The translations under genes and the position numbers were made by a program. A stretch of 49,172 nt of DNA from a virus. The stretch's first letter is position 1. Each line of letters starts with the position of its first letter. Below the pieces are notes generated by a model. That model was not told the origin of the DNA. It was given only the letters and a program-made list of their open reading frames with translations, and searched no databases. Location: IMG/VR virus record IMGVR_UViG_3300050821_000522, positions 1 through 49,172 of that record. One strand, 5' to 3'. Shown here piece by piece: positions 3,577-42,366 of this stretch.

Positions 3577-4047
3577 ATGTCTACCCAGTCATTTAAGTTT
3601 ACAGGTAAGGTCAAGTGGTGTCGTCCAGACCAGACGAACGAGTGGGGCAAGTTCTCCACTCGTTTCTACCCTGATAATAAATCATTAGAAGAGATGAAGA
3701 AGCTTGCCATTAAGAACACATGGAGTACAGACGAAGACGGAGAATTCACTAACGTCTCTTGTCCTAAGGAAAAGGACTATAGAGGACGTAAGATAATTAA
3801 TAAGATTGTAGTCATAGGTCCAGATGGCAATGACCACTACTCTGATGTCCATGGCTTTGTCGGAGATGGATCTGATGTTGAGTTATGGATTGACTACTAC
3901 GACCACCCTATTGCAGGGAGTATGCGTCGTGGACATGCCATTAAGTGGACTGGAATGAAGATTATTAACTTAGCCCCTCCGTATACTAAAGAACAAGAAG
4001 TTAAACCAATGCCTGAGTGGGGGGAACAGGCAGTTATGGTTCCATGA
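3577..4047 (+). CDS. Probable single-stranded DNA-binding protein
   Basis: A 156-aa protein with alternating beta pattern and aromatic residues typical of an OB fold: FKFTGKVKWC at the N-terminus, then DVHGFVGDGSDVELWIDYYD, where phage SSBs carry a G-N-G-S-x-V turn, and ending in an acidic and Pro-rich segment. Size and position beside the polymerase fit an SSB. A T7 gp2.5-type acidic aromatic tail is not obvious; the end is MPEWGEQAVMVP. The assignment rests on the pattern, not on a diagnostic motif. Confidence 0.55.
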   Translation: MSTQSFKFTGKVKWCRPDQTNEWGKFSTRFYPDNKSLEEMKKLAIKNTWSTDEDGEFTNVSCPKEKDYRGRKIINKIVVIGPDGNDHYSDVHGFVGDGSDVELWIDYYDHPIAGSMRRGHAIKWTGMKIINLAPPYTKEQEVKPMPEWGEQAVMVP

Positions 4048-4112
4048 TTTGGTTAGGTCCTTTACCAGTGGAAGAAAGTAAGCGTAATGGCGAGCCTTGC
4101 CTGGACTATTAA
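4044..4112 (+). CDS. Possible 22-aa peptide
   Basis: ATG 4044 overlaps the SSB stop (ATGA) and reads 22 codons to TAA 4110. Most of the frame lies within the hairpin at 4056-4118, so the apparent frame may be incidental to RNA structure. Confidence 0.25.
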   Translation: MIWLGPLPVEESKRNGEPCLDY

Positions 4113-4145: not shown

Positions 4146-4493
4146 ATGATGAAAAAGCAGAAGTCCCACTTACAGGAGTTTATTATGGGCAGGAAGAATA
4201 GGTTCACAAACACCACCTTGGCCGGCGCAGATGAGATGTTCTACGCCGTGACAATGGACAATGGAAAGAGCAGCCCTGCTCTTAATGCCAAGCAAGAGGT
4301 CTTGGATTGGTTGGATGAACATTTCGTTAATACAGTGACTGATGTCAGTCAGATCACAGTCAAGAGAAAGAAGAGGAAGTCTGCCTTACTCCGAGAAGCA
4401 GAGCGAGCGTCAGAGATCGCTATCTTGGAGAGGAGACTAGAGTTCCTCAAGGAACAGCCTCCTGTCTTCAAAGAAGGATCGGAGGCCATGTAA
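4146..4493 (+). CDS. 115-aa basic helical hypothetical
   Basis: ATG 4146 has GAGGG upstream; an internal ATG at 4185 with GGAG is the alternative and gives MGRKNRFTNTTLAG. The protein has a globular N-terminal half and a basic, probably coiled-coil C-terminal half (KRKKRKSALLREAERAS). Function is unknown. It is the last coding sequence before the gene-free 4494-5475 region. Confidence 0.6.
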   Translation: MMKKQKSHLQEFIMGRKNRFTNTTLAGADEMFYAVTMDNGKSSPALNAKQEVLDWLDEHFVNTVTDVSQITVKRKKRKSALLREAERASEIAILERRLEFLKEQPPVFKEGSEAM

Positions 4494-5475
4494 TCCGGCT
4501 GAGTACCAGCCCGGCTGTTGACCGGTGATTGGGAGAGTCGACCGCGATGACCTGCTAACGCGGAGAAGACAAGGTAGCAATACCAAAGTAGGATGGAAAG
4601 GGACACTCTGATGTCTGTGGTTCCGCCACGCACTACAGTGGAAAGTCCTAGCTGAGGGCGGCCGTCTCCTTAAGTGGCCTGGTCGGAAGACTACGGCACA
4701 TCAGCGTCTCTAGTCCATATAGAGATCCAGGTAGGTTGCAAAGATTGATGACATGTCCGCTTTGTTGATGATGCGCAAATCGACAGAGAAGTAGCAAACA
4801 GCCCGTATGGCGTCCGGTTCGACTCCGGTTCGTTGAGGTAAACCCATACGAAGATCTTATAGGCGGTCCAGATTAAGGCCAAGAGGCACGATACTGGCTA
4901 GGCCTAGGATACTAACTCGATGTCGAAACCTGAGTATAACCTAAGTAGTCCCTGATCCGGGGACGTAAGTTCCGAAAGTACGAGTGCACAGTAGGTTCAA
5001 TTCCTTACTCCATGAACTGGAGACTGGCGGTGCATAGAAGGTAGTCAAAGAGAACTCCATCCTTTGGGTAGAGGCTTTGACATGACGAATAGGAACGTGG
5101 GTTGATTGCCAGTCCTGAATAGACTGGACTGAGGGTCATATTCCCTCTACATCCGAGTTCATCGACTAGAGAAAGTAGAGGCAGCTGAGTTGTCTCTGTC
5201 AGCAAGCTGTCCCGAGAGATAAAGAGGCCCCTAAAGGCTGCATGTTAAGTCCTATGCTAATCCCTGGGGAAGGGAGCATACCTGGTAGGCACATGATCCT
5301 CGTACTAATTCTACGTCAGTTCTTATCCGTCTGGTTAGAGATGCTAAACAGAATGGATTAAGGGACGAAGCTGTATCAACTATACAGAGAGGTGACCTGA
5401 CATGACTAGGAACCTTCTTCGCCCCATCAGACCACCCTAAGTTAACTTGGGGATGGGACCTTCAGAAAGGAATTC
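4494..5475 (+). ncRNA. Candidate ~980-nt structured non-coding RNA
   Basis: No credible gene exists here on either strand, although the rest of the genome is packed. The region is rich in local hairpins: GGTA-GCAA-TACC (4573-4584) and GGGAC-GTAA-GTTCC (about 4957-4972), both capped by GNRA loops; CCGCG/CGCGG near 4541-4563; TCTCTA/TAGAGA (4707-4725); CCAGTC/GACTGG (5109-5127); CTCCA/TGGAG (5008-5022); GTCAAAG/CTTTGAC (5043-5080); TCCCT/AGGGA (5261-5275); CTGTAT/ATACAG (5371-5387). A terminal nested hairpin, CCCAT outside CCCTAAG-TTAA-CTTGGGG, ends near 5457. Two hairpins copy the tRNA T-loop. Size, gene-free state and residence in a tRNA-bearing phage recall the GOLLD and ROOL classes of large RNA; homology is not shown. 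The ends are set by flanking genes. Confidence 0.65.
4804..4850 (+). ncRNA. tRNA T-arm-like domain inside the large RNA
   Basis: CCGG (4814-4817), TTCGACT, CCGG (4825-4828) copies a T-arm with the standard seven-base loop. It is enclosed by a 7-bp helix, CGTATGG (4804-4810) with CCATACG (4844-4850). No acceptor, D or anticodon arm can be built around it, so it is not a tRNA. T-loops commonly serve as tertiary contacts in large RNAs. Confidence 0.55.
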
Positions 5476-5694
5476 ATGACTTTAGAAGAACAAACTAAAC
5501 ATCTTCTTGCTACTCACAAAGGCATAGGTATGATCCCTCCTTTCTATGCAGAGACGGCTAGTGTAAAAGAAGATCAGAGCTGGCCTTATTGGATAATTAG
5601 AAATAAGTCTTGTAATTCTTTTGGATGTTTCTTTTCAAGAGTTGATGCAGAAGCTTTAGCTCCTATGTTAAATAAGCTTACCAAGGCCCAATAA
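5476..5694 (+). CDS. 72-aa hypothetical
   Basis: ATG 5476 has AAAGGAATTC upstream, just after the hairpin that closes the structured region. The product includes WPYWIIRNKSCNSFGCFFSR, a pattern suggesting a small alpha/beta domain with two Cys, and ends with a Leu-rich helix. Similar small proteins of unknown role occur in many phages. Its placement behind the structured RNA raises the possibility that the RNA is also its leader. Confidence 0.55.
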   Translation: MTLEEQTKHLLATHKGIGMIPPFYAETASVKEDQSWPYWIIRNKSCNSFGCFFSRVDAEALAPMLNKLTKAQ

Positions 5695-5709: not shown

Positions 5710-6000
5710 ATGGGCAGGTGGCATTACGAACCCTATGATGAAGATGATGATTATCGTCCTCGTCGTAATAGACCTAGAGTAGAGATTCCTCCTGGTGTAG
5801 ATCCTATTAGAATTATGGAGTTTATGGATCGAGTCCAGAGACGTAAATCCAAAGAACCTAAGAAAGAGGAAAAGAAGAAGGAGTTAGCCAAAGAAGCCTT
5901 ATGGTATTTCCAGGCTGCATGTATTCTATATTTCCTGTCTCCGCCCATAGCTGCCTTACATCAGCTTATTGCAACTCTAACTACATCGGCACTTAAATAA
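5710..6000 (+). CDS. 96-aa basic protein with C-terminal membrane segment
   Basis: ATG 5710 follows TGGAGAAGAAC. The first half is charged (DEDDDYRPRRNRPR), the middle is Lys-rich (KSKEPKKEEKKK), and residues ~66-93 are hydrophobic (ALWYFQAACILYFLSPPIAA), consistent with a tail anchor. The next gene begins one base after its stop. Function is unknown; it may tether something to the inner membrane. Confidence 0.6.
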   Translation: MGRWHYEPYDEDDDYRPRRNRPRVEIPPGVDPIRIMEFMDRVQRRKSKEPKKEEKKKELAKEALWYFQAACILYFLSPPIAALHQLIATLTTSALK

Positions 6001-6001
6001 C

Positions 6002-6883
6002 TTGAAATCAATTACTACTCTTATAACAGATATCTACCAAGTCTTGGAGGCTAGAGATGGAAACTTCTCTCCTGAGATTGTTAGTGACTTATCCTCGGGT
6101 ATCTCTAGCCGCCTTCACGGACAGTTGGGTGAAAGACCCGAAGGGCAGAAGGCTGCTCTCAGACTGTCAGCTATGGGTCCAAAATGTCCAAAGGCTCTCT
6201 GGTACTCTATACATCACCCAGAACTTGCCGAGCCTCTACCGCCGTGGGTCCACGCTAAATTCTCGTTTGGACACATACTTGAGGCATTCGGGATAGCTCT
6301 ATGTAAAGCAGCAGGACACACAGTCACAGGAGAGCAAGATGAACTCTGGGTGGACGGTGTGGCCGGCCATAGAGACGCTGTGGTGGATGGCTGTATTGTG
6401 GATTTCAAGTCTTGTAACAGTCGTTCTTTTGAGACTATTAAACGTAAACAGATGGTTAACGATCCTTTTCTTTCTAGCTATCTGGACCAGATGGACGGAT
6501 ATCTGGTGGGCTCACTTGAAGACCCTCTTGTTACAGTAAAGGATAAGGGGTATATATTTGCCATTGATAAAACATTAGGACATATGTGCTTATATGAACA
6601 TTGCATTAGGGAGTCATCAATTAGGGAGCGCATTGGACGATCTAAGTGGATCGTTGCTCAACCTAGCCCGCCTGACTGTACTTGTGGAGTTCAGCCAGAC
6701 GGAGAAAGCGGAAATATTAGACTTGACGCAAAAGCTAGTTACTCTAACTTCAAACATTCTTGTTTCCCGCATCTTAGAACCTTCTTATATTCAGAAGGAC
6801 CTAGATACTTAACAGTAGTAAAACGGAGACCTGCCGATCATGTCCGAGAGATCGACGCCAAAGGCAACACTGTCTACCATTAA
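6002..6883 (+). CDS. Cas4/RecB-type PD-(D/E)XK exonuclease
   Basis: A 293-aa protein from TTG 6002. The core shows KCPKALWYSIHHP near residue 60, a Cys position used for the iron-sulphur cluster in Cas4-like nucleases, then GHRDAVVDG supplying the metal-binding Asp and CIVDFKSC supplying the D-x-K catalytic pair. A C-terminal Cys group (CTCG and a later C) could complete the cluster. Phage homologues degrade DNA ends in recombination and host-DNA breakdown. With endonuclease I just downstream it forms a recombination and genome-processing pair. It overlaps the next gene by 44 bp. Confidence 0.8.
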   Translation: MKSITTLITDIYQVLEARDGNFSPEIVSDLSSGISSRLHGQLGERPEGQKAALRLSAMGPKCPKALWYSIHHPELAEPLPPWVHAKFSFGHILEAFGIALCKAAGHTVTGEQDELWVDGVAGHRDAVVDGCIVDFKSCNSRSFETIKRKQMVNDPFLSSYLDQMDGYLVGSLEDPLVTVKDKGYIFAIDKTLGHMCLYEHCIRESSIRERIGRSKWIVAQPSPPDCTCGVQPDGESGNIRLDAKASYSNFKHSCFPHLRTFLYSEGPRYLTVVKRRPADHVREIDAKGNTVYH

Positions 6884-42038: not shown

Positions 42039-42232
42039 TCATTGAATGTGCTTGTGGTCGATTAGAGACTCGGCACGATACCTCTAGTTATCGCATTAAA
42101 GGATTGTGTTCGAGATGTAGGGCCGTTAAGTTAGCCCGTATTCAATTCTTATCATCTAGGTACCCTACTGTATTTGCGCCTATTTTAAGGCATGTAGGTA
42201 AAGGAAAGCTAGCACGCGTGGCGAAACGGTAA
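42035..42232 (+). CDS. 65-aa zinc-ribbon protein
   Basis: ATG 42035 overlaps the previous stop (ATGA). ECACGR and LCSRCRAVK form a zinc ribbon, followed by a basic helical end (HVGKGKLARVAKR). The last 21 bases overlap the tRNA-Leu gene on the same strand. Confidence 0.6.
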   Translation: MIIECACGRLETRHDTSSYRIKGLCSRCRAVKLARIQFLSSRYPTVFAPILRHVGKGKLARVAKR

Positions 42233-42290
42233 ACGCGAGGGTCTTAAAAACCCTTGGGAAACCTTGTGGGTTCAAGTCCCACCGTGTGCA
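42212..42290 (+). tRNA. tRNA-Leu (anticodon UAA)
   Basis: The acceptor is GCACGCG with CGTGTGC, the anticodon stem AGGGT/ACCCT encloses CTTAAAA (anticodon TAA), the variable arm is short, and the T-arm is GTGGG-TTCAAGT-CCCAC. CCA is not encoded. It reads UUA, common in this genome and rare in GC-rich hosts. It overlaps the end of the upstream coding sequence. Confidence 0.9.
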
Positions 42291-42291
42291 C

Positions 42292-42366
42292 GGGCTCATA
42301 GCTCAATGGTAGAGCAAGCGGCATATAACCGTTAGGTTCCGGGTTCGAGTCCTGGTGGGCCTACCA
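42292..42366 (+). tRNA. tRNA-Ile (anticodon UAU), unusual base 33
   Basis: The acceptor is GGGCTCA with TGGGCCT, D-arm GCTC/GAGC, anticodon stem AGCGG/CCGTT, loop CATATAA, T-arm CCGGG-TTCGAGT-CCTGG, and CCA is encoded. The anticodon reads TAT (Ile, AUA). Position 33 is A where nearly all tRNAs have U. It begins two bases after tRNA-Leu. Confidence 0.85.

Follow-up and report, generated by a model that had tools for sequence, protein, structure and literature searches.

Very few natural RNAs reach the size considered here. Among the closest described systems, GOLLD has been linked with tRNA genes and, through pull-downs, with ribosome binding, and both GOLLD and ROOL form RNA-only nanocages (PMC12286853). 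OLE is a large structured RNA whose commonest immediate downstream neighbour is a small positively charged membrane protein (PMC12265935). With regard to translation, a Pro-Pro at the C-terminus was found in E. coli to arrest termination in every context that was tested, and cleavage at the stop codon and tagging by ssrA ensue (PMC3834316). We know of no other RNA in which permuted tRNA-like domains occur together with a conserved reading frame for ribosome arrest.

We analysed a 49,172-base virus record (IMG/VR IMGVR_UViG_3300050821_000522), the whole of which we call the window, and propose that its positions 4494-5475 are likely to hold a member of a previously undescribed family of very large structured RNAs, the copy in the window being about 0.98 kb long; transcription as one RNA is inferred. 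The window carries replication genes (DNA polymerase A, primase-helicase, a Cas4-domain exonuclease and endonuclease I) which are distant relatives of genes of roseophages, pelagiphages and related phages. The region is flanked upstream by a 115-aa gene to which no function is assigned (stop at 4493) and downstream by a 72-aa ORF (start at 5476), beyond which come a charged protein of 96 aa and then the Cas4-like exonuclease. Its GC content is 50% vs 43% across the window, and a search for promoters or terminators bounding the RNA gave nothing above chance. A sequence-only reading had described this region as free of genes on both strands. This mostly held, as there are only short mechanical ORFs between 4493 and 5476; of those that do not overlap the flanking genes, the two longest have 63 and 66 aa, both on the minus strand. 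The term gene-free nevertheless needs correcting, since the region contains an ORF of 12 codons that is preceded by a good Shine-Dalgarno sequence (Table 1).

By searching with the neighbouring proteins we found two close homologues, L002 and L005, both from IMG/VR phages, which have the gene order of the window and a stretch homologous to the region from end to end, with a DNA identity of about 71-72%; a further locus, L018, is identical to L005 across 1,200 aligned bases. The insertions and deletions that distinguish the window from L002 and L005 are not multiples of three, and the mini-ORF is the sole ORF common to them. The consensus fold, which was derived from these three sequences only (the window cluster), contains 256 pairs, of which 54-55 have changed on both sides and yet remain paired. 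Column-shuffled alignments gave 21.6±4.3 such double-change pairs (maximum 31) vs 55 in the real alignment, and the alifold z of the cluster relative to them is -8.8, showing that structure in the window cluster exceeds chance, albeit with three sequences only. As a separate observation, the DNA polymerases of L005 (107-2245) and L018 (2661-5018) carry an in-frame insertion of ~135 aa, beginning near DKNRCLLKLQNDEEN, which is missing from the window and from L002 and might represent an additional domain, an intein or an open intron.

Table 1 Features of the window RNA and of the genes that follow it. Positions are those of the window; paired strands are separated by a slash.
Feature	Position	Strand	Basis or remark
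Large structured RNA, approximate extent	4481-5463	+	Whole-length conservation in L002/L005, alifold z, double changes; transcript ends inferred
Terminal helix	4481-4488/5455-5463	+	Mean P 0.79, one double change
Hairpin, 7-nt loop CUGUUGA	4509-4526	+	6 bp, one double change
Hairpin CCGCG/CGCGG	4542-4563	+	Covaries in L002/L005
GCAA-capped hairpin	4573-4584	+	Consensus fold; altered in L002
Multi-branch domain	4632-4735	+	7 double-change pairs, mean pair probability 0.86-0.99
Helices of the 4632-4735 domain	4632-4641/4727-4735, 4651-4655/4701-4705, 4661-4665/4693-4697, 4706-4712/4720-4726	+	
10-bp hairpin	4760-4788	+	Four double-change pairs
tRNA-like module 1	4804-4850	+	Closing helix 4804-4813/4842-4850; G-C to A-U double change
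Module 1 T-arm, CCGG-UUCGACU-CCGG	4814-4828	+	T-arm motif scan, consensus fold
tRNA-like module 2, permuted order, degenerate	4984-5035	+	Closing helix 4984-4989/5030-5035; D-like strand ACUGGCG last
Module 2 T-arm, UUCAAUU loop	4991-5008	+	Precedes the acceptor-like hairpin
Module 2 capped acceptor-like hairpin	5008-5022	+	Two double-change pairs
6-bp hairpin	5109-5127	+	Four double-change pairs
5-bp hairpin	5131-5147	+	Two double-change pairs
Hairpin (5180-5185/5206-5211 and 5189-5192/5200-5203)	5180-5211	+	Covarying
16-bp hairpin	5323-5360	+	Four double-change pairs
Shine-Dalgarno of mini-ORF, GAGGUGA	5389-5395	+	Identical in L002 and L005
Mini-ORF MTRNLLRPIRPP and stop, 12 codons, Pro-Pro-stop ending	5402-5440	+	Same kind across the family
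Nested hairpin, outer stem CCCAUC/GAUGGG	5423-5457	+	Overlaps the Pro-Pro-stop codons; consensus fold
72-aa ORF with Shine-Dalgarno	5476-5694	+	No family match; missing at the same place in L002 and L005
96-aa small protein	5710-6000	+	Pro-rich N-terminus, K/E-rich middle, hydrophobic C-terminal segment; usual neighbour of the RNA
Cas4-domain exonuclease, phrog_1990	6002-6883	+	Family match; served as synteny marker

The many local hairpins reported by the sequence-only reading are borne out by this consensus, which consists of numerous hairpins and several multi-branch domains, most of them covarying. Of the two GNRA loops it had singled out, the GCAA-capped hairpin is real, being kept in L005 and altered in L002, and the GTAA loop sits in a helix that the consensus draws differently; given the change in L002, GNRA loops are not a defining feature. 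The nested hairpin that it had placed near a ribosome site was confirmed. Two of the outcomes that had been named as refutations were homologues that encode conserved proteins and homologues without covariation, and neither was met: the only shared ORF is the 12-codon mini-ORF, and compensatory changes occur beyond chance. The reading as a large structured phage RNA is thus supported by the homologues, through their conservation, their compensatory changes and strand-specific tRNA-arm motifs, although both the tRNA-like domains and the Pro-Pro-stop mini-ORF had been overlooked.

Not every element of the window fold is general. The 5' strand of the terminal helix overlaps the last codons of the upstream gene, and this helix is not found throughout the family. 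Of 66 loci, 31 have a hairpin of the same general kind as that at 4509-4526, which in about 20 cases is close to GGCUGUYUACC; the hairpin with the loop CUGUYNA recurs in many other loci. The form with a 7-nt loop near CUGUYUA on a variable stem, present in about one third of the loci at varying positions, resembles an anticodon arm; we do not claim it as an Asn or Asp anticodon arm, position 37 being often U.

The extent of the family was determined by an alignment of the nuclease, which yielded 73 loci, most of them distinct. Nearly all loci with enough upstream sequence have a gene-free stretch 5' of the nuclease, 1.0-2.7 kb in length (median 1.5 kb), and about 65 further phages with the Cas4-like nuclease carry a GC-rich gene-free stretch at the same position as in the window; boundaries at these other loci were drawn by an ORF rule. 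Most of the stretches have no detectable DNA similarity to the window. In comparisons of sequence profiles, clusters A, D and E are strongly connected, and the links to B, C and the window cluster are weaker. The profile of cluster A matches L002 at E 1e-5 and the window at E 6e-4, in both cases via the second T-arm element only, so that a link between the window cluster and cluster A is possible and no more than suggestive. The membership of the window in the family therefore rests mainly on position, T-arms and the mini-ORF. In four other sequence clusters, structure is conserved relative to shuffled alignments with z of -7.6 to -13.8, and we consider it very likely that the region is a real, conserved, structured RNA element. 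Since it is conserved in about 65 diverse phages despite RNA sequences that have diverged beyond recognition, it must matter to them. Within cluster A, the sequence UAAUGUAGUAGG, continuing to GAUAAAAGCGAGAYCC, is near-invariant directly 3' of a T-arm (e.g. L065, about 3983-4100), and a scan with this sequence brought in two further contigs, L090 and L095.

The family was not found outside these metagenomic phages in the sets we searched. The RNA region has no match among 50,697 cultured phage genomes (INPHARED), neither blastn nor the small protein yielded a cultured-phage homologue, and the nearest cultured relatives of the nuclease have no long gene-free region at the corresponding place. 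Bacterial genomes searched through the nuclease likewise gave no homologues. In the open-licence literature searched for permuted tRNAs, tRNA-like RNAs or large noncoding RNAs in phages, no such family is described.

We scanned 67 regions for a T-arm motif, defined as a stem of 5 with at least 4 pairs and the loop UUCRANY. The results show 99 T-arms on the sense strand and 0 on the antisense strand, against 0.43 expected from shuffled sequence, with at least one T-arm in 59 of the 67 regions; in 336 kb of downstream coding DNA the motif occurs only twice. At many loci a near-perfect D-arm (e.g. UGGCGAAAUGGUAAACGCG) lies 3' of the T-arm, separated from it by a short capped hairpin or by a linker of 5 nt, and at ~16 loci the T-arm sits within a circularly permuted, acceptor-capped tRNA-like cloverleaf. 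In these permuted elements a variable loop or a class-II-like variable arm precedes the T-arm, the acceptor is capped by a loop of 2-9 nt or replaced by 5 nt, and the strand upstream of the T-arm pairs just past the D-arm in a closing helix, equivalent to the anticodon stem, of 6-11 bp (14/16 elements). Eight closing helices exceed partner-swapped controls at P<0.05, and this control is conservative because several loci have similar closing sequences. The permuted order, as read from sequence, is that of a cloverleaf whose acceptor is closed and which opens at the anticodon stem instead. With the acceptor capped or missing, the tRNA-like domains are not chargeable.

A clear permuted cloverleaf is not present at every locus, and the form in the window is degenerate: the T-arm stem of module 2 is weak, with 3 pairs around a 7-nt loop or 5 around an 8-nt loop. 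The element order of this module is found also in cluster A and L006. ARAGORN detected no tRNA or tmRNA in the gene-free regions searched, and the wider loci of 60 relatives (4-11 kb) were likewise without an ARAGORN tRNA gene; one tRNA gene reaches the Rfam threshold in the L005 locus. A functional tRNA gene was rejected as an identity for the region, the order being permuted and no complete cloverleaf with a free 3' end being present. In four loci (L009, L047, L070 and L071) the variable arm or acceptor hairpin of a tRNA-like element shares the hairpin-loop sequence AGUAUCCUAGAA, which is possibly a tertiary-contact motif.

A covariance model built from 7 permuted elements found 11 more loci at E<1e-4, all on the plus strand and inside gene-free regions. 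The same model also matches, at 42266-42316 (E 4e-7), the junction between the window's own pair of real tRNA genes, one for Leu(UAA) and one for Ile(UAU), which lie back to back without spacer at 42212-42366. The model therefore recognises genuine tRNA parts, and order alone is no proof of permutation. This match speaks for the view that the regions are a graveyard of decayed tRNA genes, given that tandem tRNA genes also produce the order T-arm, acceptor, D-arm. It is flank pairing, not order, that separates the permuted elements from tandem tRNA genes: their acceptor strands pair together and their flanks pair as an anticodon stem, unlike those of tandem genes. Moreover, compensatory changes are kept, no standard tRNA remains in the gene-free regions searched, and decay would not conserve a Pro-Pro-stop ORF. 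The graveyard is all but excluded.

A very divergent permuted (two-piece) tmRNA would also place T-arm, acceptor and D-like strand in this order, followed by a short frame near the 3' end. On the other hand, neither ARAGORN nor the Rfam tmRNA models give a match, the D-stem is present in the clear examples, the frame has its own Shine-Dalgarno and start codon and ends in PP instead of an AA-type degradation tag, and 1-2.7 kb is far too long. The capping of the acceptor by 2-9 nt, or its replacement by 5 nt, largely refutes this alternative, which we regard as very unlikely.

The most conserved feature of the family is the Pro-Pro-stop ending of the mini-ORF. A fixed-coordinate scan found an ORF with this ending, led by a Shine-Dalgarno and 10-33 codons long, at the 3' end of the region in 61 of 66 loci, vs 0.12 loci in shuffles, 0 in antisense and 0-1 for other XX-stop pairs; four exceptions were re-examined and have such a mini-ORF slightly further on. 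The residue preceding Pro-Pro is Arg or Gln in 50/61 mini-ORFs and the stop is TAA in 59/61; the remaining residues show no conservation between clusters. A conserved CCTCCTTAA near the 3' end was considered as an anti-Shine-Dalgarno motif and rejected; it is the Pro-Pro-stop itself, because the third base varies freely (CCN CCT TAA) and a Shine-Dalgarno and start codon lie upstream. With its C-terminal Pro-Pro and Shine-Dalgarno, the mini-ORF meets the sequence feature of a termination-arrest peptide; that it is translated and arrests ribosomes is inferred. In almost all loci the 70 nt past the stop contain a strong hairpin (median -21 kcal/mol), and the Shine-Dalgarno of the next gene comes at a median distance of 64 nt from the stop. 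This next gene usually encodes a small K/E-rich protein with a hydrophobic C-terminal segment. In the window the 72-aa ORF separates the mini-ORF from the corresponding 96-aa protein, which has a net charge of about +5. The small protein is likely to be membrane-bound, with the reservation that its hydropathy is borderline for a membrane helix.

These observations also admit the main rival explanation, which remains possible: that the region is a giant cis-regulatory leader, in which, by analogy with CutF/CruR or TnaC, a ribosome arrested on the mini-ORF as leader peptide would control the downstream small protein and nuclease, and the large RNA would be the sensor part of the leader. In its favour are the succession of mini-ORF, strong hairpin and next Shine-Dalgarno at almost all loci, and the precedent of cutFOG, where proline-rich C-termini and a stem-loop control the next gene (PMC9973294). 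Furthermore, a general terminal helix enclosing the mini-ORF was not above swapped controls, so the mini-ORF is possibly a separate leader of the next gene and not part of the RNA. Against it, leaders of 1-2.7 kb are, to our knowledge, without precedent; the next gene's Shine-Dalgarno lies outside the hairpin in the window and cluster A, by inspection by eye only; the controlled gene is not constant, as the 72-aa gene comes next in the window; and tRNA-like domains with capped acceptors are left unexplained.

Taken together, the explanation that we prefer, with moderate confidence and with a mechanism that is partly inferred, is a modular, tRNA-mimicking RNA family at whose 3' end a ribosome arrests. 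Whether the RNA acts through the translation machinery is an inference we hold in the balance, for it rests on its two best-conserved features, the tRNA elbow parts and the termination-arrest ORF, both of which point there. In this proposal a ribosome would start on the mini-ORF and be arrested at termination on the Pro-Pro-stop, an arrest in the host that is inferred. The arrested ribosome would sit where the RNA ends on its 3' side, and may be held or captured there; the arrest may define or protect the 3' end of the RNA through stop-codon cleavage, and it may gate the next gene. The unchargeable tRNA-like domains would be bound by a recogniser of the tRNA elbow, such as the ribosome, RNase P, EF-Tu or a tRNA-modifying enzyme; such recognition is inferred, as is the role of the small charged neighbour as a plausible protein partner. 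The specific picture of a ribosome parked at the 3' end of the RNA together with an adjacent protein partner is inferred as well, and we are inclined to doubt it. A bolder reading, possible only, is that the giant RNA mimics the tRNA elbow with permuted unchargeable domains and captures the ribosome on its own 3' end; if true, a membrane-tethered complex of RNA, protein and ribosome would redirect or disable host translation or ribosome rescue. The parts of the family point to one machine, the ribosome or other tRNA-binding factors, and this offers a handle on the function of giant phage RNAs.

We compared the region with known RNA families. With the Rfam models of GOLLD and ROOL, positions 4300-5600 of the window gave no match at the gathering threshold, nor with the limit relaxed to E 10; 11 other loci gave none at the gathering threshold, and 7 loci none up to E 0.5; the OLE covariance model has no match in the window or in 7 loci. 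Membership in any Rfam family was rejected, with no matches even at lenient thresholds, and a resemblance by eye to fragments of 16S/23S rRNA and RNase P is without Rfam support. The sequence-only reading had left open a new family or a divergent member of GOLLD or ROOL, had asked for the Rfam search reported here and had pointed to nearby tRNAs. The evidence favours a new family, given the lack of a match even at lenient E-values, and the argument from tRNAs is weak for the window, whose tRNA genes lie about 37 kb from the RNA region. A GOLLD/ROOL-like structural RNA, that is an RNA-only cage or scaffold in which T- and D-arms are only tertiary modules and the mini-ORF is unrelated, would agree with the size, the phage setting, the high modularity and the unknown function, as well as with the nanocages and the GOLLD-ribosome pull-down cited above. 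T-loops are tertiary modules in many RNAs. Nevertheless, neither Rfam model matches, and a mini-ORF at essentially every locus is unexpected of an unrelated ORF, making this alternative unlikely. We conclude that the region likely represents a new RNA family, distinct from GOLLD, ROOL, OLE and tmRNA.

With GOLLD and ROOL the family shares the character of very large structured phage RNAs with complex modular folds and unknown function, but it is up to about three times longer and is located among replication genes, not in a tRNA island; it also has tRNA-like domains in permuted order, and a Pro-Pro-stop mini-ORF at essentially every locus. Its usual neighbour, a small charged protein whose C-terminal segment is hydrophobic, recalls OLE and OapA, with RNA binding inferred; however, OLE is about 600 nt long, occurs in Gram-positive bacteria and has no sequence similarity to the family, and OapA has four hydrophobic segments vs one in the phage protein. 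The permuted tRNA-like domain and the short frame toward the 3' end are shared with permuted two-piece tmRNA, whose chargeable CCA acceptor with alanine identity (G3-U70) the family lacks. Permuted tRNA genes (reviewed in PMC10085705) show the same circular permutation of tRNA order, yet known ones are processed to normal tRNAs, whereas the domain described here is part of a much larger RNA, and its acceptor-joining loop of 2-9 nt or missing acceptor means that no mature tRNA can come from it. In YbeL-PP, CutF and TnaC, too, C-terminal proline(s) before the stop hinder termination, sometimes with a hairpin and a regulated gene located downstream (PMC3834316, PMC9973294), but the peptide of the new family is no longer than 10-33 aa, is otherwise without conserved residues and ends a giant structured RNA. 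This combination of features was not found in any known family; if giant phage RNAs are counted as one kind, the family is a variant of that kind.
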